Shown: positions 6,585-18,787 of the stretch, in pieces
Numbering within the stretch: the first letter of the stretch is position 1
Layout of the letters: the number at the start of each line of letters is the position of its first letter
NCBI RefSeq assembly: GCF_007970665.1
Contig: NZ_CP042430.1
Coordinates: forward strand, 2,914,001 to 2,978,000
Source: Baekduia soli
GTDB taxonomy: Bacteria > Actinomycetota > Thermoleophilia > Solirubrobacterales > Solirubrobacteraceae
Direction of reading: 5' to 3'
Length of the DNA: 64,000 nucleotides
Program-made: the position numbers and the translations under genes
The notes under the pieces: model-generated
Database searches by the model: none
Told to the model about the DNA's origin: nothing
What the model saw: only the letters and a program-made list of their open reading frames with translations

Positions 6585-8078
6585 ATGCTGCGAATCCTTC
6601 GTCCTCTTCCTCTCGCCCTCGTGGCCGCCAGCGTCCTGGCTCCCACGGCTGCCAACGCCGCGACGTACCCGAAGGTCTCGAGCGTCGCGCCGCTCAAGCT
6701 CGCCGTCGGCGATCTCCTGACGATCAAGGGCAGCGGGTTCCGCGCCGGGGCCTGGAAGACGACCGTCGTCTTCCAGCGCGACGGCAAGCCCGCCGTGTTC
6801 GTGAAGGCCAGGAGCGCCAGCGCGACGAAGATCACGGTGCGCCTGCCCGAGAAGCTCGGCGTGTTCCTCAGGACGAGCAACCTCGTGCCGGTCGCGACGA
6901 AGTTCAAGCTCCGCGTCCTGACGACCCGCTTCTCCAGGACCTGGACCTCGGACAGGCTCTCGCCGTCCGTCGCGCCCAGGGCCGGCGCCCCGGGGACGAC
7001 GGGCATCACCGGCACGACGGGCATCACCGGCACGGCCGGCGGCACCGGCTCGAGCCTGACCGGCACGCCCGCCGGGACCCCGGCCGCGGCGCTCTCGGCC
7101 TACCAGGTGTGCGAGCGCGACGCCGCCTCGAGCCCCGACGTCGACGCCGACGGCGACGGCCTCACCAACGCGGTCGAGCTCGCCGCCAAGACCGACCCCT
7201 GCCTCGCCGACACCGACGGCGACGGCATCGTGGACGGCTACGAGTACTTCTCGGCGGTCGACCTCAACGGCAACGCGGTGCCCTACCCGGGCAAGCGACC
7301 GTGGCCCAACCCGCTCGATCCCACCGACTCCAACTTCGACTTCGACGGCGACGGCCTGACCATGAGCCAGGAGTACCAGCTCTGGCAGTTCACCGGCGCG
7401 CACTTCCCGCTGACCGCCTACAGCGACGGCAAGCAGGCCACGGCGGGCAGCCATCCGGTCACCACGCCGGCCGAGCACAACCTCGACCTCGACGGCAACG
7501 GCTACCTCACCGACGACGAGCTGGACGCCGACAACGACGGCCTCTCCAACATGGTGGAGTACAACTCCACCGGCACGCAGGTCTGGTGGAACTCGGTCAA
7601 GTGGTACAGGCCGCATCCCGACTCCCCGCCCTCCGCCGGCTCCAAGCCCGACTACACCGAGAAGCCCTACTCGATCCGCGCCTTCTCGCAGACGAGCCCG
7701 GTCGACGCCGACACCGACGGCGACGGCATCCCCGACGGCGCCGACGACCAGGACAACGACGGCTGGTCGAACTTCTGGGAGATGCAGATCGGCCGCACCC
7801 GCGTGCCGTACGGCTCGGGGCTCAGCACGCCCTACCGCGTGCACCCGTTCAACCCCTGCCTGCCGGACCCGCACGCGCTGACCTGCAGCCGCTGGCTCCC
7901 GCTCGACAGCGACCCGTGGCCTCCGTTCGACGGCACGCAGCAGATCGGCGACGCGCTGCCCTTCGGCTTCGACTACGCGAGCATGGATCCGTCGGTCGTC
8001 TACACGGGCTCGATGGCAAGCGAGTCGCCGCTGACCTTCGTCGGCCCGTGGGACGGACGCCACGGCAACCCGAACTGA
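6585..8078 (+). CDS. secreted protein with IPT-like and calcium-binding TSP3-type repeats
   Basis: A 497-aa precursor with signal peptide (LALVAASVLAPTAANA). Residues about 30-130 resemble an IPT/TIG fold (VGDLLTIKGSGFRAGAW). A Gly/Thr-rich linker repeats TTGITG. From about 185 onward there are at least five DxDxDG-type calcium loops (DVDADGDGLTNAVE, DTDGDGIVDGYE, DFDGDGLTMSQE, DLDGNGYLTDDE, DTDGDGIPDGADD), as in thrombospondin type-3/EF-hand-like repeats. It is likely an extracellular calcium-stabilised adhesin or structural protein. Its position between cpaB and cpaF suggests a surface role alongside the pilus. It reads cleanly without frameshift. Confidence 0.75.
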   Translation: MLRILRPLPLALVAASVLAPTAANAATYPKVSSVAPLKLAVGDLLTIKGSGFRAGAWKTTVVFQRDGKPAVFVKARSASATKITVRLPEKLGVFLRTSNLVPVATKFKLRVLTTRFSRTWTSDRLSPSVAPRAGAPGTTGITGTTGITGTAGGTGSSLTGTPAGTPAAALSAYQVCERDAASSPDVDADGDGLTNAVELAAKTDPCLADTDGDGIVDGYEYFSAVDLNGNAVPYPGKRPWPNPLDPTDSNFDFDGDGLTMSQEYQLWQFTGAHFPLTAYSDGKQATAGSHPVTTPAEHNLDLDGNGYLTDDELDADNDGLSNMVEYNSTGTQVWWNSVKWYRPHPDSPPSAGSKPDYTEKPYSIRAFSQTSPVDADTDGDGIPDGADDQDNDGWSNFWEMQIGRTRVPYGSGLSTPYRVHPFNPCLPDPHALTCSRWLPLDSDPWPPFDGTQQIGDALPFGFDYASMDPSVVYTGSMASESPLTFVGPWDGRHGNPN

Positions 8079-9986: not shown

Positions 9987-10328
9987 CTAGCGGTTGCTGT
10001 CGTCGGTGTCGTACGGCTCGCGGCTGCCGGACTTGGCCAGCCCGCGGGAGATGAAGTACGAGCCGGCGACGATCGAGACGTAGAGCCAGGCCTGGTGGGC
10101 GACGAACTCGTCGGTGCCGTTGGTGTCGCCGCCCTTGATGACAGCGGCGCTGATGAGGATGCCGACGATCACGACGACCATGCCGAAGAACTCGGTGGTC
10201 TTGGTCGAGTGCTTGGTCTCGGTCGTCAGGCGGCGCGGGCTGCGGCGCGTGTGGTCATCACTGGTAATCGGCGCGCCGAAACTGAGGCGATCGTCTTCAC
10301 CGCAGATCGACACCAGCTCCGACAGCAA
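9987..10328 (-). CDS. small two-helix membrane protein
   Basis: The C-terminal 75 residues are convincing: a first membrane helix (FFGMVVVIVGILISAAVI), a loop GGDTNGTDEF, a second helix (AWLYVSIVAGSYFISRGLA), then a charged tail (KSGSREPYDTDDSNR). The start is uncertain; the upstream 30-40 residues are less natural, and the true start may lie near 10265. Small membrane proteins of this layout are frequent in Actinobacteria, without an assigned function. The gene is followed by a strong hairpin. Confidence 0.6.
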   Translation of the reverse strand: MLSELVSICGEDDRLSFGAPITSDDHTRRSPRRLTTETKHSTKTTEFFGMVVVIVGILISAAVIKGGDTNGTDEFVAHQAWLYVSIVAGSYFISRGLAKSGSREPYDTDDSNR

Positions 10329-11283
10329 GCTCGGCGAGCTTCTTCCCGGCGTCCAGCTAAGGGTGCTGACCAGGGCAAGAACCCGGCCTCGACGAAGGGC
10401 GAAGGAATGGGTCAGCGCGATAACACGCTGGTCACCACCGGGGCCGACGACCCCGTCGACGAAGAGGTCACGGTGCTGCTCAGGGTCGATCAGGTCGGGC
10501 AGTTCGGCGCTCGCTCGAGTGATCTCCTGCTTACCCGTCTCTTCGGAATATCCATGTCCGCAGTCTCCCCGGCCACTTGGGGCCCAGGCTCCGGGCCAGA
10601 CCGAGAAAGCTTGGCTTCGGTCCGTGCGCGCACCGTGCGCTATGGCTCGGGCCTCAACCCCCCGGAAGTGGGGTGTTGCGCCGTTAGCCTCGGCCTGAGG
10701 TCTTTCTCGGGGCGGTCAAGTCTTGCCGTGGTGATGCTGGTCCTGCTCGCGGCGGTGGGGCTTGCGGCCGCTGCGTCGGCGGGGGCGGGGCAGCGTTCTT
10801 TGGTGTGTCCGGGGGTGGCCTATCAGCTATGCTTTCAAGGCGTCGCCTTCCGTATGGGGCGTCGCAAGACGGTGATGCGTGGCGCAGCAAACCAGCGCAA
10901 TGAGCATCGGCGAGACGCCCGGGGGCGCCGGGGTCGGTCCGAGGACCGTGCAGGCGACACGTTATTCAAGCCACGCTGGGGCAGAACGCCGGGGCGCCGA
11001 GACGCAGACGCCGCGGTTGCTGTCACCTGGGGGCGGTGTGGGATGACTCGGCCGGGAGGTGAGAGAGGCCCGCACGTTTGATGAGTGTCTGGAGCGGTGT
11101 CATCTCATCTCAGGGAGGCAAGAGAGGGTGGTAGACGTTCGAGGTTGCCCGTTCGAGGCTGAGCGGTCTCGGACAGCGAGGGGTCGACGCGTCGGCGAGC
11201 GCCGAGGCTTGGGACGCGTACGAGTCGCGCCCTGCGCCTGAACAGCTAGTCGCTCTGCGGTCCGACTGACCGGACGCGTACGG
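10329..11283. other. gene-poor stretch with a possible secretion-signal remnant
   Basis: No intact gene. On the plus strand around 10730-10860 there is a signal-peptide-like segment (VVMLVLLAAVGLAAAASAGAG) followed by a short Cys-containing piece (LVCPGVAYQLCFQGVAF). It runs into low-complexity Arg-rich sequence and is probably a decayed secreted protein. Nothing else is supportable. Confidence 0.4.
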
Positions 11284-11670
11284 CTACTCGTCGCGGATCT
11301 TCCAGAAGGAGTTCTTGACGGCGACTCGGCCGTCGGGCGCGAACGTCCAGATGTCGCAGCCCCGGACCTCGATGGCCGCGCCGTCGGTCGTCGTACCGCG
11401 GATCGTCCACTCCGATACGGCCCGGTCGCCGTCAACGAAGTCGCCATGGCTGTCGTACCGGACGTCGGGGATCGTCTCGAAGCGGGCCGACAGCCCGCGG
11501 TGGACCTCCTCGATTCCCTCGAACCGGCGGCCGCACGGCTCAGGCCCGCGCGGCGACTCAAAGACGCAGTCACGTGAGAAATGCCTCAGAATCGCGTCCA
11601 CGTCGTGGGCGTTGAAACCCTCAAGAATCGCCCGGAGGGTTGCCAGCTTCTGCTCCCGGTCATCCATCAC
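11284..11670 (-). CDS. SnoaL/NTF2-like protein
   Basis: A 128-aa protein (GTG 11670, or ATG 11667). The NTF2-like cone fold is suggested by the N-terminal helix LRAILEGFNAHDVDAILRHFSRDCVFESP, the central RRFEGIEEVHRGLSARFETIPDV and the alternating C-terminal strands (VSEWTIRGTTTDG, EVRGCDIWTFAPDGRVAVKNSFWK). Such proteins bind or isomerise small polar molecules, and the substrate cannot be inferred. A second, ester-cyclase-like member is at 31004. Confidence 0.8.
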   Translation of the reverse strand: MMDDREQKLATLRAILEGFNAHDVDAILRHFSRDCVFESPRGPEPCGRRFEGIEEVHRGLSARFETIPDVRYDSHGDFVDGDRAVSEWTIRGTTTDGAAIEVRGCDIWTFAPDGRVAVKNSFWKIRDE

Positions 11671-12034: not shown

Positions 12035-13661
12035 CCCGGATCCACCGGTCGGGTAGGACGGTGGCGTCCGGGGCGTGGACAAGAATGACCTCCTGAGCAG
12101 GAAGAAAGCGGCCGTTCGTGGCGGTCGCGGCCTGCGTCAGGAGGTCACCTTGATGGTGCAGGATGACGAGGCCGTCGGACTGGACGCTCTGGCGGTCAGG
12201 TTCGATGACGAGCGGGTGGTCAGCGATGCCGGGGCGATGCTCGTCGCGATGGTCGCGCAGCGGCTGGGGGTCGAGGCGCTGGCGGGACGGTTGGTGGCGC
12301 TGCGGCGCGAGCGGCCCGGGGCGGCGAACGCGGGGCGCAAGGTGATGGCCTTGGTGTTCGCGATGGTGCTCGGCGCCGACAGCATCGATGACTGCGGCGT
12401 GCTGCGGGCCGGGCGCACCCGCCGGCTGTTGGGCGGCTGGCTGCCGGCGCCCTCGACGCTGGGGACGTTTCTGCGGGCGTTTACGTTCGGGCACGTGCGT
12501 CAGCTCGATCGGCTGCTGGCCGAGTCGCTGACCCGGGCGTGGCAGGCCGGGGCCGGCCCCGGCGACCGCAGGCTGATCGTCGATGTCGACAGCTTCGTCG
12601 GGCAGGTATGCGGCAAGACCAAGCAGGGCGCGGGCTACGGCTACACCAAGCTCTTTGGCTACCACCCGATCCTCGCGACCAGGGCCGACACCCGCGAGGC
12701 GCTGCATATTCGCCTCAGGAAGGGATCGGCCAACACGCAGAAGGGCATCAAGCGCTTCTGCGAGGAACTGATCGCAAGGGTCGACCGCGCCGGCGCCACC
12801 GGCACGAAGCTGCTGCGCGCCGACTCGGGGTTCTGGAACACCAAGGTGTTCAAGCTGTTGGAGGCCAAGGACTGGTAGTACTCGATCGGCGTGCGCAACA
12901 TCAAGACGGTCAAGGCGGCCGTCGAGGCGATCGACCCGGATGCCTGGCTGGCGATCGACTACCCCGACGGGGGCCTGGCGCAGATCGCCGAAACGACCTA
13001 CGCGGGACGGCGGCTGGTCGTCCGGCGCACCCGCCTGGTCGGCCCGCAGGCCGAGCTGTGGCCCGACTGGCGCCACTTCTGCCTTCTGACCAACCGCACC
13101 GACGACCTCCACACGGTGGAGGCCGAACACCGCGACCACGCCGTCGTCGAACAGGTCATCGCCGATCTCAAAGACCAAGCACTCGCGCACTTCCCCTCCG
13201 GACACTTTCACGCCAACGGCGCCTGGACCGTGCTGGCCTGCCTGGCCCACAACCTGCTCAGATGGACCCAGCTACTCGGGCTGCCCAACACCACGATCCG
13301 TGCCGCCCGCACCCTACGGCGTCGGCTGCTTGAGGTCCCCGGCCGCCTGACCAGCCACGCCCGCGGATGGACACTGCACCTGCCCGCCCGCTGGCCCTGG
13401 CACGGCGACTACCTCAACGCGCTCAACCGCATCCGCGCGCTCCCCGCCGCCTGAACCACCGCACCGACGTTCAACACCAACAACGCCAGCGAGTCCAAGG
13501 CGTCGATCACCGCCGGGCGCAAACGGCAGACCGACACCCGCCGAAGGCCTCAACCCGGCCTTGGCGGCCCGATCCGCGCCCATACCAGCCGGCGCCGTCC
13601 TCCGAGCACCCCGAAACGCCGCTTCGGTGCACCCACCCGGTCCCAATCGGTGGATCCGGGC
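12035..13661 (+). mobile_element. IS1380-family insertion sequence, copy 1
   Basis: 1627 bp. The ends are inverted repeats beginning (G)CCCGGATCCACCG. It is flanked by a perfect 4-bp direct repeat, TTAG (12031-12034 and 13662-13665), the target-site duplication length known for IS1380. An inverted copy of identical length lies at 35907-37533 with its own different duplication. Confidence 0.9.
12075..13454 (+). pseudogene. IS1380-type DDE transposase with in-frame amber codon (copy 1)
   Basis: The reading frame is continuous except for TAG at 12876-12878, between ...EAKDW and YSIGVRN. Family motifs surround the catalytic residues: LIVDVDSFVGQVCGKTKQG with GYTKLFGYHPILA (first Asp), LLRADSGFWN (second Asp) and HRDHAVVEQVIADLKD (Glu), followed by HNLLRW. 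All three catalytic regions are present, but the stop separates the last Glu from the two Asp residues, so activity would need readthrough or a helper. The same amber codon is in copy 2. Confidence 0.85.
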
Positions 13662-14654: not shown

Positions 14655-15971
14655 TCACGTCTGTCGGGCCTCTGTTCCTCGGGGCAACGCCGCGTCGGGC
14701 CGCCGACAAAACCGAGAGTGCGCGTCCTCCGAACGCCGTTGATGATCCGCGGGCATGTCGCGCAGTACCCAGAGGCCCGAGGCCGCCGTCAGGCCCGCGA
14801 CGATGGCGATCGCGCCACCGTAGCCAAGCGCGTCGGCGACGCCGCCGGCGATGATCGCGCCTAGGGCGTAGCCCATGTCGCGCCAGAAGCGGTAGACCCC
14901 GACGACGGGTGCGCGCGCGACCGGAGAGACCGCGTCGGACATGGCGGCGATCAGCGTCGGGTAGACGAGCGCGGTGCCGATCCCGAGTAGCGCGGCGGTG
15001 CCGGTGGCGATCGCCACCGAACCTGCGCTGAGGGACAGCACCGCGAGCGCCCCGGCCTGGACGAGCATGCCGGCGACGATCAGCGGCTTGCGTCCGGCGC
15101 TGTCGGACCAGTGGCCGGTCGCGATCTGGGCGACGCTCCACACGGCGGGATAGACCGCGGCGACCAGGCCGATCTGGGCGGCGCCGGCGCCGTGGGCGGC
15201 CAGGAACAGCGGGACAAGTCCCCAGGCGAGGCCGTCGTTGAGGTTGTTGACCAGGCCGGCTTGCGAGCAGGACCGCAGCGCCGGGACGCGGTAGCTGGCC
15301 TGGGCGAACGCCTCGCGCAACCGCGGCGGGCTGCCGCCGGTTCCGGTGTGGTGGGCAGACTGTTCGAGCGCGACGTGCGCGGCGGTGTCGCGCACGAACA
15401 GCACCGAGAGCAGGAACGCGGTCACAGCGATCACGGCGCTCGCGACGACCAGTACGTCGCGCGCGGCAAACTGGGCAGCCATCACGCCGCTCAGTCCGGC
15501 GGCCAGCGCGACGCCGCCGTAGCCGGCGGCCTCGTTGAGGCCGAGCGCCAGCCCGCGCCGGCGGGGGCCGACCAGGTCGATCTTCATCACCACGGTCATG
15601 GACCAGGCCAGGCCCTGGTTGACGCCCAGCAGGACGTTGGCAGCGACGATCCAGCCCCAGCTCGGGGCTACCGCGATGAGCAGTGGCACGGGCAGCGCCA
15701 CGGCCCAGCCGGCGATCAGCAGTCGCCGCCGTCCGGCACGCTGCGCAAGCGCACCGGCGCCGAGGTTCGTGAACGCCTTGGCGAGGCCGAAGGCGACGAT
15801 GAACGACAGCACCGCGGCGCTGGAGGCCAAGTGGAACTCCTGGCGGCCGACCAGCGGCAGCGTCGAGCGCTCGAGGCCGACCATCGCCCCGACGAACGCG
15901 TTGACGGCGACCAGCAGCCCGAACTGCGCGGCGTTCTCGCGCAGACCGAGACGGACCGGCGGCCGGTTCAT
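14655..15971 (-). CDS. MFS transporter in the sulfur cluster
   Basis: A 438-aa protein with about 12 hydrophobic segments. The MFS loop 2-3 signature is seen as GALAQRAGRRRLLIAGW, repeated in the second half as GHWSDSAGRKPLIVAGM. The ATG at 15971 overlaps the stop of the persulfide-dioxygenase-like gene (ATGA), so the two form an operon. The substrate is unknown; by position it may export a sulfur or selenium/arsenic compound such as sulfite, thiosulfate or a methylated product (inference). Upstream extension of the frame beyond 15971 is the shadow of the neighbour. Confidence 0.85.
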   Translation of the reverse strand: MNRPPVRLGLRENAAQFGLLVAVNAFVGAMVGLERSTLPLVGRQEFHLASSAAVLSFIVAFGLAKAFTNLGAGALAQRAGRRRLLIAGWAVALPVPLLIAVAPSWGWIVAANVLLGVNQGLAWSMTVVMKIDLVGPRRRGLALGLNEAAGYGGVALAAGLSGVMAAQFAARDVLVVASAVIAVTAFLLSVLFVRDTAAHVALEQSAHHTGTGGSPPRLREAFAQASYRVPALRSCSQAGLVNNLNDGLAWGLVPLFLAAHGAGAAQIGLVAAVYPAVWSVAQIATGHWSDSAGRKPLIVAGMLVQAGALAVLSLSAGSVAIATGTAALLGIGTALVYPTLIAAMSDAVSPVARAPVVGVYRFWRDMGYALGAIIAGGVADALGYGGAIAIVAGLTAASGLWVLRDMPADHQRRSEDAHSRFCRRPDAALPRGTEARQT

Positions 15972-16732
15972 GCCACGTCGGCGAGCGGGCGCCCGGCCCG
16001 GTTGGCGGCCATGATCGCGGCCTGCCGCTCGGGCCGCGGCGGAATGTCCTGCACCAAGGCCTTCACGAACGCGTCCTCGTCGCCGTGCTGGAGTGCGACG
16101 TTGTGGCGGCGCTCGAAGCCGATCGTCGAGGTGGGGTTGGCCGACAGGCCGCGGCCGCAGACCGAGCCGGAGTAGTGCGAGGGGTACAGCAGCAGGTCGT
16201 CGGACAGTGTCAGCAGCCGCTGGGTGATCGAGCGGTACAGCTCCCGCGCCATCCCCTCGACGGTGTGCTCGCCGTGGGCGTGCAGGTCGGGGCGCCCGGC
16301 GTCGCCGACCAGCAACGCGTCGCCGGCCAGCACGAACCACGGCTCGTCGGCGCGCGTGCGATCGGTGACCAGATAGGCGTGATGGGCGACCGCGTGGCCC
16401 GGCGTCGCGATCGCCTGCACCTCGACGTTGCCGAGCACGACGACCTCCCGATCACCCATCGGACGATGGTCGAAGTCCACGCCGGCGCCCACGGGCAGGT
16501 ATGCGGTCGCGCCGGTGCGCGAGACGAGGTCCACCATCCCCGACACGTGATCGGCCTGGACATGCGTGTCGAAGACGGCCGTGATCGCCGAGCCCTGCGA
16601 CTCGGCCAGCGCGACGTAGTCGTCGACGAGATCGGCGTGCGGCTCGACGACGGCCAACGAGCCGTGCGTCTTGCAGCCGAGCACGTAGGACGCACAGGCG
16701 GTCTCGTCGTTGAGCAGCTGGCGGAAGAACAC
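15968..16732 (-). CDS. MBL-fold persulfide-dioxygenase-like hydrolase
   Basis: A 254-aa protein. GTG 16730-16732 is chosen because the Shine-Dalgarno-like GGAGCG sits just upstream and the sequence starts at VFFRQLLNDETACASYVLG, typical of ETHE1/Blh proteins. Motifs: FDTHVQADHVSG, TPGHAVAHHAYLV and LAGDALLVGDAGRPDL. The usual THxHxDH motif has Gln at its second His. In ETHE1 the iron ligands are the first His of this motif plus a later His and Asp, all present here, so activity is plausible. It would oxidise glutathione or protein persulfide in the cytoplasm. It is divergent from the ArsR-rhodanese gene and heads an operon with the MFS gene. Confidence 0.85.
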   Translation of the reverse strand: MFFRQLLNDETACASYVLGCKTHGSLAVVEPHADLVDDYVALAESQGSAITAVFDTHVQADHVSGMVDLVSRTGATAYLPVGAGVDFDHRPMGDREVVVLGNVEVQAIATPGHAVAHHAYLVTDRTRADEPWFVLAGDALLVGDAGRPDLHAHGEHTVEGMARELYRSITQRLLTLSDDLLLYPSHYSGSVCGRGLSANPTSTIGFERRHNVALQHGDEDAFVKALVQDIPPRPERQAAIMAANRAGRPLADVA

Positions 16733-16762
16733 GACGTCGCTCCTGGTCGAAGGGCTTGACAA

Positions 16763-16792: not shown

Positions 16793-17458
16793 ATGAGTTC
16801 CCGAGTCGAGAAGACCGCGCTGTTCGAGGCCATCGCGCTGATGGGCAAGGCGTTCGCCAGTCCCCGGCGCCTCGAGTTGCTGGATCTCCTGGCCCAGGCG
16901 CCGCGGACCGTCGATGAGCTGGCCAGGGCCAGCGATCAGTCGACGGCCAACACGTCGCAGCACCTGCAGGCGCTGCACGCCGCCGGTCTCGTCACTCGAG
17001 CGCGCGAGGGCACAAGCGTGCGCTATGCGCTGGCCGGCGACGAGGTTCTGGCCCTCTGGCTCTCGCTTCGGCAGACCTCCGTCGCACAGCTGGCCGAGGT
17101 CGAGCGGGCGGCAGGCGAGTACCTCGGCGAGCACGTCGAGGCGATCGGCCGCGACGAGCTGATCGCCCGTCTACGTCGCGGCGAGGTCATCGTCATCGAC
17201 GTCCGGCCACCCGAGGAGTTCGCGGCCGGCCACATCGACGGTGCCCGCTCGATCCCGATCGACGAGCTGCGCGACCGGCTGGCCGAACTTCCCGCCGATC
17301 GCGAGGTCGTGGCCTACTGCCGCGGCCCGTTCTGCGCCTACGCCCATGAGGCGGTGCGCCAGCTGCGTGCTGCCGGCCGTGACGCCAGACGCCTCCAGGA
17401 AGGCTGGCCCGAGTGGCGGCTCGCGGCCCAACGGCGAACGCACCAGCGAGCCGCCTGA
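16793..17458 (+). CDS. ArsR-family regulator fused to a rhodanese domain
   Basis: A 221-aa protein. Residues about 1-95 form an ArsR winged helix (FASPRRLELLDLLAQAPRTVDELARA, recognition helix TANTSQHLQALHAAGLV). Residues about 115-215 form a rhodanese domain (VIVIDVRPPEEFAAGHIDGA) with active-site loop AYCRGPFCAYA, whose first Cys is the expected persulfide-carrying residue. Such fusions sense persulfide or thiol-reactive compounds and repress neighbouring sulfur genes. The palindrome just upstream and the divergent persulfide dioxygenase support autoregulation and control of both directions. The stop is 17 bp before the 44-aa gene. Confidence 0.9.
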   Translation: MSSRVEKTALFEAIALMGKAFASPRRLELLDLLAQAPRTVDELARASDQSTANTSQHLQALHAAGLVTRAREGTSVRYALAGDEVLALWLSLRQTSVAQLAEVERAAGEYLGEHVEAIGRDELIARLRRGEVIVIDVRPPEEFAAGHIDGARSIPIDELRDRLAELPADREVVAYCRGPFCAYAHEAVRQLRAAGRDARRLQEGWPEWRLAAQRRTHQRAA

Positions 17459-17475: not shown

Positions 17476-17610
17476 ATGCGTGCACTCGGATTCGACGCAC
17501 TGCTGGTGGCAGCCCGGGGGCCGGTGACGGCGACCGACTTCTGCCTGCGCTGCGAGGCCGTGTGCTGGTGGGACCGCCGTACGACCCGCACGGAGAGGAT
17601 CGCCGCATGA
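17476..17610 (+). CDS. 44-aa Cys/Trp-containing small protein
   Basis: ATG 17476 is preceded by GAGGAGG at good spacing. The protein carries the motif DFCLRCEAVCWWD with three Cys and two Trp. Its stop overlaps the next ATG (ATGA), so it is coupled to the methyltransferase. The Cys cluster could bind a metal(loid) or pass sulfur/selenium to its neighbour (inference). The family is not recognised. Confidence 0.6.
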   Translation: MRALGFDALLVAARGPVTATDFCLRCEAVCWWDRRTTRTERIAA

Positions 17611-18398
17611 GCTCAGACGACATTCCCGTTGATGTCGATGTCCTGCGCGACGAGATCCGCAAGACCTACACCGATGTCTCCACCGACCAGTCCAAGGACT
17701 ACATCTTCCCCACCGGGCGCAGCTGGGCGCAAGCGCTCGGGTACCCCGAGCCGGAGCTGTCGCGGGTCCCGGACGCCACGGTGGAGAGCTTCGCCGGGGT
17801 CGCCAACCACTGGGCGCTGGGACGGATCGAGACCGCAGAGGTCGTCCTGGACCTCGGCTGCGGCGCAGGCACCGACCTGCTGATCGCGGCCCAGATGACC
17901 GGCTCAACGGGGCGAGTCATCGGCGTCGACATGACCACGACGATGCTCGCCCGCGCCCGGCAGAGCGCCACCGAGATGGGCGTCGACAACGTCGAGCTTC
18001 ACGAGTCGCTGATCGAGTCGCTGCCACTGCCCGACGCATCGGTCGACGTCGTGATCTCCAACGGTGTCATCGACCTGGTCCCCGACAAGGACGCGGTGCT
18101 CGACGAGATCGACCGCGTCCTACGGCCCGGCGGCCGGCTGCAACTGGCCGACGTGATCATCCACCACGAGGTCTCCGAGGACGCCCGCAAGCGCATCGAC
18201 CTCTGGACGGGCTGAATCGCCGGCGCGTTGCTCGAGGGCGAGCACGCGCGCCTGCTGGTCCAGCGGGCCTACACCCACATCACCCAGGGCGACCTCGTCG
18301 ACACCTACGCGCGCTCGGCCTTCGAGGACACCCGCCGCAAGGCGGCCAAGTTCGGGGCGATGGGCTCCACGATCCGCGCCATCAAGCCACGTCACTGA
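17607..18398 (+). CDS. ArsM-like SAM methyltransferase, probable selenoprotein (UGA at codon 203)
   Basis: Residues 1-202 form a class I SAM methyltransferase with VLDLGCGAGTD (80-90), GVDMTTTML (106-114), SNGVIDLVPDK and LRPGGRLQLADV. The frame meets TGA at 18213-18215 and then continues with the natural C-terminus IAGALLEGEHARLLVQ to a second TGA at 18396-18398. In arsenite-methyltransferase-like proteins this point reads W..C(I/V)(A/S)GAL, so UGA replaces a conserved, functionally important Cys. A hairpin with bulged T lies directly after the UGA. Read through, the protein is 263 aa with Sec203; otherwise it is a truncated pseudogene. A substrate such as arsenic, selenium or sulfur compounds is inference. 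Confidence 0.75.
18216..18252 (+). promoter_or_regulatory. bacterial SECIS-like hairpin after UGA
   Basis: Stem: 18223-18227 pairs with 18245-18249, one T (18228 or 18229) is bulged, then six pairs enclose the tetraloop AGGG (18235-18238). From the U of UGA as 1, the bulge is at 16-17 and the loop begins at 23. This matches the known bacterial pattern of a short stem-loop with a bulged U and a G within the first two loop bases. Confidence 0.6.
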
Positions 18399-18418: not shown

Positions 18419-18787
18419 ATGGCAAGCAACGGACGGGTCGTCGTCGGCTGCACGCACGGCGAGGAGGACCCCGACCGCGTCGCTGTCTCCTACCTGACCG
18501 CCGTCGCCGCCCTCGACCAGGGCAAGGACGTCGTCATGTGGCTCAGCGTCGATGGCGTGCGGCTCGGCCTGCGTGGCTACGCCGACCGCATTCGCGCCGG
18601 CCAGGAGCCGCCGATCGAACGTCTGCACGGTCAGTTCATCGAGAAGGGCGGCCGGTTCTTCGTCTGCCCCATCTGCTTCCGCGAGCGTGAGCTCGACCAA
18701 GCCGAACTCGTCGACGGGGCCGAGCTCAAAGGCGCCACGCCGCTGATGGAGTTCGTCGGCGACGGCGCCACGACGTTCAACTACTGA
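18419..18787 (+). CDS. DsrE/TusD-like sulfur-relay protein
   Basis: A 122-aa protein with a strong ribosome site (AAGGAGG) 21 bp after the methyltransferase's second stop. The DsrE fold is indicated by the N-terminal strand VVVGCTHGEEDPDRVAVSYLT, then GKDVVMWLSVDGVRLGLRGYADRI, and by the conserved Cys region GGRFFVCPICFRERE. DsrE-like proteins carry persulfide sulfur (or selenide equivalents) on Cys. Its place in the operon with rhodanese, the small Cys protein and the methyltransferase points to sulfur or selenium trafficking. Confidence 0.8.
   Translation: MASNGRVVVGCTHGEEDPDRVAVSYLTAVAALDQGKDVVMWLSVDGVRLGLRGYADRIRAGQEPPIERLHGQFIEKGGRFFVCPICFRERELDQAELVDGAELKGATPLMEFVGDGATTFNY

Follow-up and report, generated by a model that had tools for sequence, protein, structure and literature searches.

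The window, i.e., the whole 64,000-nucleotide stretch of Baekduia soli DNA that was analyzed, contains a methyltransferase reading frame that starts with ATG at position 17607, downstream of a GGAGAGG sequence, and carries an in-frame TGA. As stated in an earlier reading of the locus made without database searches (the sequence-only reading), the frame continues past this codon, reaching a second TGA at positions 18396 to 18398. The gene is flanked by genes for an ArsR-type regulator fused to a rhodanese domain and a DsrE-family protein, and the regulator gene is divergent from the genes for an MFS transporter and an MBL-fold protein (Table 1). Four genes of this neighborhood, those for ArsR-rhodanese, the methyltransferase, DsrE, and MFS, end in TGA, showing that TGA still serves as a stop codon. 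A 44-codon ORF (positions 17476 to 17610), which encodes three Cys residues and overlaps the start of the methyltransferase gene (ATGA), was dropped as a candidate since, among the loci scanned, a full match was found only in the near-identical second copy described below; a short peptide may escape such a scan. Elsewhere in the window, a DDE transposase gene (PF13701; positions 12075 to 13454) is broken by an in-frame TAG at positions 12876 to 12878.

Table 1. Genes and sequence features of the methyltransferase locus (positions in the window)
Feature	Position	Strand	Basis and remarks
MFS transporter	14655..15971	-	Pfam PF07690; recurring neighbor
MBL-fold protein	15968..16762	-	Structure matches; recurring neighbor; start TTG 16762 is a guess
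ArsR-type regulator fused to rhodanese domain	16793..17458	+	Domain matches; recurring neighbor
Type 1 ArsM-like methyltransferase gene, very probably Sec containing	17607..18398	+	263 codons, one in-frame UGA, TGA stop
UGA, very probably read as selenocysteine (residue 203)	18213..18215	+	Homologue comparison at the codon
Putative bacterial SECIS hairpin	18219..18255	+	Bulged U16/17, loop AGGG at positions 23 to 26 from UGA
DsrE-family protein with CPIC motif	18419..18787	+	Pfam PF02635; neighbor in many relatives

Profile searches revealed matches of the predicted protein to methyltransferase domains, and its nearest PDB chains were those of CmArsM (5eg5 and others; E value, 2.8e-23). In the PDB comparison, the UGA codon (context DLWTG-U-IAGALL, where U is residue 203) aligned with the Cys of the GECLGGAL motif of CmArsM 5eg5. 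We took this Cys to be C224, according to the numbering in the available part of PMC5552862. This places the UGA at a conserved Cys position, as the sequence-only reading had proposed. Furthermore, the same genome harbors a second copy of the gene, encoding a 95% identical protein and having TGA at the same codon.

Homologues were searched for in 399 genomes of the class (E value threshold, 1e-30; at most six candidates scored per genome). TGA was present inside all 41 listed matches that showed at least 56% identity and spanned residue 203. Thirty-eight of them were read in the DNA, and each showed W(T/A)G-UGA-IAGAL, the last one (L075) ending soon after the UGA; L108 and L109 were read additionally, and L110, the last of the 41, fell outside the motif pattern. 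Three more listed partial matches (62 to 63% identity) stop short of the codon. Among the matches with up to 50% identity listed for the class, all 15 that were read as Cys candidates have Cys at the codon. One of the three partial matches that stop short of the codon (L106, G251:C119) has an in-frame gap of approximately 33 codons in which the UGA and the hairpin region are gone, representing either a real deletion or an assembly fault.

A search of 396 genomes of the phylum (E value threshold, 1e-48) detected the UGA form at 43 to 51% identity in 23 further genomes; of the relatives for which no stop was listed, four were newly read, and all four have Cys at the codon. Overall, 37 class genomes and 23 genomes beyond the class have UGA at this position. 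In plasmid and phage collections, every match had less than 60% identity. The comparison of homologues for Cys or UGA, suggested as a check in the sequence-only reading, resulted in 64 aligned rows of the type 1 methyltransferase (a second type is described below), 60 with UGA and 4 with Cys; alignment of the UGA with Cys or Sec in homologues is a criterion for bacterial selenoproteins. Three of the four Cys rows nest in the type 1 UGA clade (tree support, 100/96), which fits a change from Sec to Cys, and the fourth (L135) groups with Cys-only relatives. Deeper placements in this tree are unsure: CmArsM and some Cys rows form long branches, and 15 Cys rows lie outside the group count.

Protein-level constraint was analyzed on both sides of the codon. 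Across 36 sequences, pN/pS was 0.32 upstream of the UGA (60 codons) and 0.38 downstream of it (57 codons), indicating that coding constraint extends beyond the UGA. A comparison of the two copies in the genome, however, showed 3 nonsynonymous and 2 synonymous differences downstream of the UGA, against 1 and 6, respectively, upstream of it.

For the analysis of the region 3′ of the UGA, the U of UGA was numbered as position 1. A hairpin directly after the UGA, with a bulge at positions 16 to 17 and a loop from position 23 having G in its first two bases, had been described before, and the same structure was recovered on folding: either U16 or U17 is bulged, and G is the second base of the AGGG loop. 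Its minimum free energy is -34.7 kcal/mol (z of -2.5 against dinucleotide shuffles, 4 of 200 being as good), and 1.3% of 1,000 synonymous recodings were as stable. When loose bSECIS rules, taken from the part of PMC13188914 at hand, were applied, they were satisfied at 65% of 8,027 other in-frame codons of these GC-rich genes, and a single hairpin is thus weak evidence. A scan of the 64-kb window with Rfam at the gathering threshold gave no match.

It is the family comparison, not the single hairpin, that lifts the SECIS candidate above chance. All 36 family members passed the loose rules, compared with the above-mentioned 65% of background codons, and stems of at least 8 bp were present in 31 of 36 members but at only 3.9% of background codons. 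Among 34 distinct rows, columns 13 to 20 were paired with columns 24 to 31 in 97.1% of cells (88.4% in shuffles), pair 15-29 changed from U-A to G-C in 9 rows, pair 18-26 changed from G-C to C-G in 8 rows, and 17 cells were changed on both sides (5.3 in shuffles, none of the 500 reaching this value, and no more than 8 in slid controls), all of these measures being inflated by kinship among the rows. For two of the five covariation measures, namely, the numbers of pairs with both sides changed and of further pair types, the family did not exceed the shuffles (466 of 500 as high). RNAalifold returned the same stem as the covariation columns.

Among the 36 rows of the family, GCT is used for Ala at codon 4 in 24 rows, compared with 90 of 1,049 Ala codons elsewhere, and every row has either GCT or GCG there; codon 8 ends in A in 32 of the rows, whereas A makes up 8.1% overall. 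In the window gene, its second copy, and L023, three of the eight family pairs are broken, and the hairpins adopt a shifted register with a still strong fold; in L023, G is absent from the first two bases of the main loop. The mean stability z against synonymous recoding was -1.15 in the 42 nt after the UGA, while other segments reached -0.71, so stability alone is weak and the pair counts carry the argument.

The sequence-only reading had also called for a search of the genome for Sec genes. Indeed, selD, the tRNA-Sec gene (selC), selB, and selA are clustered at 3.787 to 3.794 Mb, within 7 kb, and all score above the curated cutoffs (SelA, 397 bits; SelB, 297 bits; SelD, 376 bits; tRNA-Sec, 71 bits). 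The full set of SelA, SelB, SelD, and tRNA-Sec, which is a criterion for assigning a selenoprotein, is thus present in the genome, SelA with one frame slip: the assembled selA changes frame near 3,793,804 (around 9800 in L059). The gene is in one frame in G228, a genome of the same genus. A formate dehydrogenase alpha gene (G000:C1:3796722-3799786) adjoins the cluster and has UGA in NQARIUHSS, which we take to be the usual Sec place of this enzyme; it is likewise split over two frames, near the N terminus. The two frame slips may stem either from indel errors in the assembly or from a decaying Sec trait. A short formate dehydrogenase-like match with one in-frame TGA (G000:C1:1600137-1600448) is possibly another selenoprotein fragment.

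In the class, selA was detected in 25 of 37 genomes with the UGA form, compared with 166 of 362 others (P = 0.009, all qualities). Among good-quality genomes (90% completeness, 5% contamination), the counts were 13 of 15 and 95 of 200 (Fisher P = 0.003), and outside the class, selA was found in 21 of 23 UGA genomes. Of the 12 UGA genomes of the class without a selA match, ten are at most 82% complete and two (G179 and G091) are at 91%; a clear tRNA-Sec (at least 58 bits) was found in three and selB (E value, 1e-60) in none. Rfam tRNA-Sec matches of 48 to 53 bits in selA-less genomes were left out of the count, because selA-negative comparison genomes give the same. Among the 12 genomes used for this comparison, G106 carries selB and a tRNA-Sec scoring 66.8 bits, showing that a missing selA match is no proof of absence. 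Furthermore, the three genomes carrying the nested Cys form all have selA, and thus Cys does not track the loss of the machinery. In L149 (G734:C88), the Sec methyltransferase gene (7198 to 7932) and selA (9993 to 11327) are approximately 2 kb apart on one contig.

On the basis of the fixed UGA, the Cys/Sec exchange, the constraint beyond the UGA, the conserved RNA hairpin, and the Sec genes, we consider that the UGA codon is very probably decoded as selenocysteine. SelA, SelB, SelD, and tRNA-Sec would decode it, directed by the downstream hairpin, to yield a 263-residue SAM-dependent methyltransferase of the ArsM family. The original suggestion of a Sec-containing methyltransferase is thereby favored, in particular by the Sec genes, the UGA and Cys homologues, and the compensatory changes in the hairpin. 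If the UGA were an ordinary stop, a 202-residue protein would be made and the remainder would be a relic. Such a stop would suit a strain left without Sec by the selA frame slip, should the slip be real, and would suit the 3 nonsynonymous and 2 synonymous differences between the copies after the UGA; it is very improbable given the family-wide constraint after the UGA, the RNA-level constraint there, and the retention of UGA in all 41 listed matches and in both copies. Still less credible is that the codon is a sequencing error or stands for another amino acid genome-wide. Frame slips do occur elsewhere in the assembly, but the UGA recurs in the 37 genomes of the class and the 23 beyond it, the four neighborhood genes ending in TGA speak against reassignment, and the aligned rows without UGA carry Cys at the codon; barring a systematic artifact, the homologues already argue against this explanation.

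The surroundings of the gene were compared among relatives. At least one of the four partners (MFS, MBL, ArsR-rhodanese, and DsrE) was present at 26 of 34 distinct places in the class, several of the remaining places having short flanks, and at 7 of 16 phylum loci (both are raw counts). The second copy of the methyltransferase gene in the genome (L058, G000:C1:2503000-2517000; 2.51 Mb) is part of a second copy of the entire group of MFS, MBL, ArsR-rhodanese, Sec methyltransferase, and DsrE genes. The nearest solved structures to the MBL protein are MBL-rhodanese proteins (3tp9; 3.1e-44), the persulfide dioxygenase ETHE1 (4chl; 9.1e-12) being further down; the NCBIfam GloB match (5.6e-16) was below the cutoff, and Pfam gave no match for this protein at 1e-6. 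The ArsR-rhodanese protein has only two Cys residues, C176 and C181, both in the rhodanese part and found in 9 of 9 sequences, and the ArsR part of the window regulator has none. In DsrE, C83 and C86 were present in 18 of 18 aligned sequences, including that of the window. Taken together, the neighbors look like sulfur-transfer company.

In 12 loci, a second type of methyltransferase (type 2), with an AWAGU-like motif where type 1 has DLWTGU, was detected near type 1. Both types have UGA in eight cases (G329, G331, G319, G003, G566, G576, G614, and G525), G319 being assigned from the number of stops alone. The G291 locus has a type 2 gene with UGA next to a truncated type 1 sequence, G507 combines a UGA type 1 gene with a Cys type 2 gene, and both types have Cys in G605 and G468. 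By locus, a UGA type 2 gene lies near a type 1 gene at L060, L061, L062, L063, L093, L141, L146, L150, and L151, and Cys versions of the pair are at L140 and L148. Among the matches listed for the window's genome at an E value of 1e-30, type 2 was absent. According to the tree, which carries long-branch warnings, the UGA forms of types 1 and 2 do not group in a single clade. The parts of the published work covered here describe arsenite methyltransferase selenoproteins and hold no account of such a pair; Haft and Tolstoy 2025 is outside this coverage. Since the neighborhood recurs, the genome holds a second copy, and some relatives have another type of UGA methyltransferase, the finding is wider than that of the sequence-only reading.

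Regarding the kind of enzyme, C72, C174, and C224 of CmArsM are described as conserved and arsenite binding in the available text of PMC5552862. In the 60 type 1 UGA rows, the C174 place is occupied by Gly (59 rows) or Ser (1 row) and never by Cys, the C72 place is occupied by Cys (24 rows), Ser (33 rows), or Ala (3 rows), and 12 rows have no Cys at all. These rows were chosen for UGA, and it is therefore the counts of 64 rows and 41 matches that speak for the constancy of Sec. In the window protein, C85 and Sec203 are the only chalcogen residues of this kind, and the three ArsM places hold C85, Gly153, and Sec203 instead of three Cys residues. The four best named models for the protein are ArsM or ArsM-like, including ArsM parts of known selenoproteins; with NF008823 (ArsM), it scores 205 bits against a curated cutoff of 263 bits, and three relatives (223 to 232 bits) are likewise below the cutoff. 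The designation "ArsM-like" in the sequence-only reading is hence supported as to homology, but not as to an intact arsenite site, as Cys is missing from the C174 place and the NCBIfam score is below the cutoff. An AlphaFold model from four sequences was set aside (mean pLDDT, 36). The protein is very probably an ArsM-like selenoprotein; its subfamily is distinct, its active site is unusual, and arsenite methylation is putative for it.

We propose that Sec203, standing where ArsM has C224, uses its selenolate to hold or activate a soft acceptor, to which SAM would give the methyl group, and that a small thiol or a partner protein may supply the ligands missing at the C72 and C174 places. Any substrate named here is a guess. 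A sulfur-bound or sulfane-type acceptor, or a thio-complexed metalloid, has somewhat less than an even chance and is slightly likelier than free arsenite; it is preferred because of the neighbors, i.e., the Cys-less ArsR part with its rhodanese, the MBL protein of the MBL-rhodanese/persulfide dioxygenase group, the DsrE CPIC motif, and the MFS transporter. Alternatively, with Sec retained, the protein could be a true arsenite methyltransferase in which Sec takes over from C224 and small thiols assist the methylation of As(III), conferring arsenic resistance; we give this a chance of roughly one in three. Sec arsenite methyltransferases are tabulated with a UxxG motif as NF008823 in PMC13188914 and as PRK11873 in PMC2398784, and "Arsenite S-adenosylmethyltransferase" is tabulated as a selenoprotein in PMC5029168, as far as the available parts of these articles go. 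The ArsM names of the four best models point in the same direction, and TtArsM of Thermus, in the part of PMC8649762 covered, methylates arsenite with a single active-site Cys, so that arsenite may be a substrate. Against it are the lack of Cys at the C174 place in all 60 rows and its presence at the C72 place in only 24, although ArsM keeps both (PMC5552862, in part), the scores of the window protein and the three relatives under the NF008823 cutoff, and the absence of Cys from the ArsR part of the regulator.

A broader possibility, which we regard as less likely than not, is a two-enzyme selenium methyltransferase module of Actinomycetota. Types 1 and 2 of these ArsM-family enzymes, each with Sec as the key residue and type 1 in some cases free of Cys, would act with ArsR-rhodanese, MBL, DsrE, and MFS in methylating and exporting sulfur, selenium, or thio-metalloid species passed as persulfide, Sec being the acceptor-holding selenolate in a non-arsenite methyl transfer.

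Ordinary gene calling stops at UGA, and such Sec genes are therefore likely annotated as truncated. With Sec as its most conserved chalcogen residue and with some Cys-free members, such a methyltransferase clade offers a system for studying the role of selenium in methyl transfer, with the Cys versions in relatives as natural controls. Most selenoproteins of known function are oxidoreductases, according to the available part of PMC2398784.

Selenoproteins of the ArsM-like kind are already known, and the variant described here is a subfamily with an unusual active site and recurring sulfur-related neighbors. The Sec arsenite methyltransferase of NF008823/PRK11873 (WP_011987699.1) has a UxxG motif (PMC13188914, in part), and the window protein is alike, with UIAG; it differs in scoring under the NF008823 cutoff, the published Sec members being known here by table entry. 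The fusions ArsM/AhpD (NF041537), ArsM/DUF2284 (NF041536), and methyltransferase/UXPK-star (NF047649) are among the four best-scoring models, match residues 8 to 227 of the window protein, and share UxxG, but in the part of PMC13188914 considered, they are listed with two or three Sec residues, whereas the window protein corresponds to the methyltransferase part, with one Sec. It remained under their cutoffs (210.9 versus 510, 206.1 versus 575, and 203.7 versus 460 bits, respectively). CmArsM (5eg5, 4fr0, and 4kw7) is aligned over 51 to 224, with C72 corresponding to C85 and C224 to Sec203, and differs at C174, which is Gly153 in the window protein. TtArsM of Thermus thermophilus is of the ArsM type and is said to work with one active-site Cys (PMC8649762, in part); that residue is C77, together with two His residues, while the window protein has its Sec at the C224 place.
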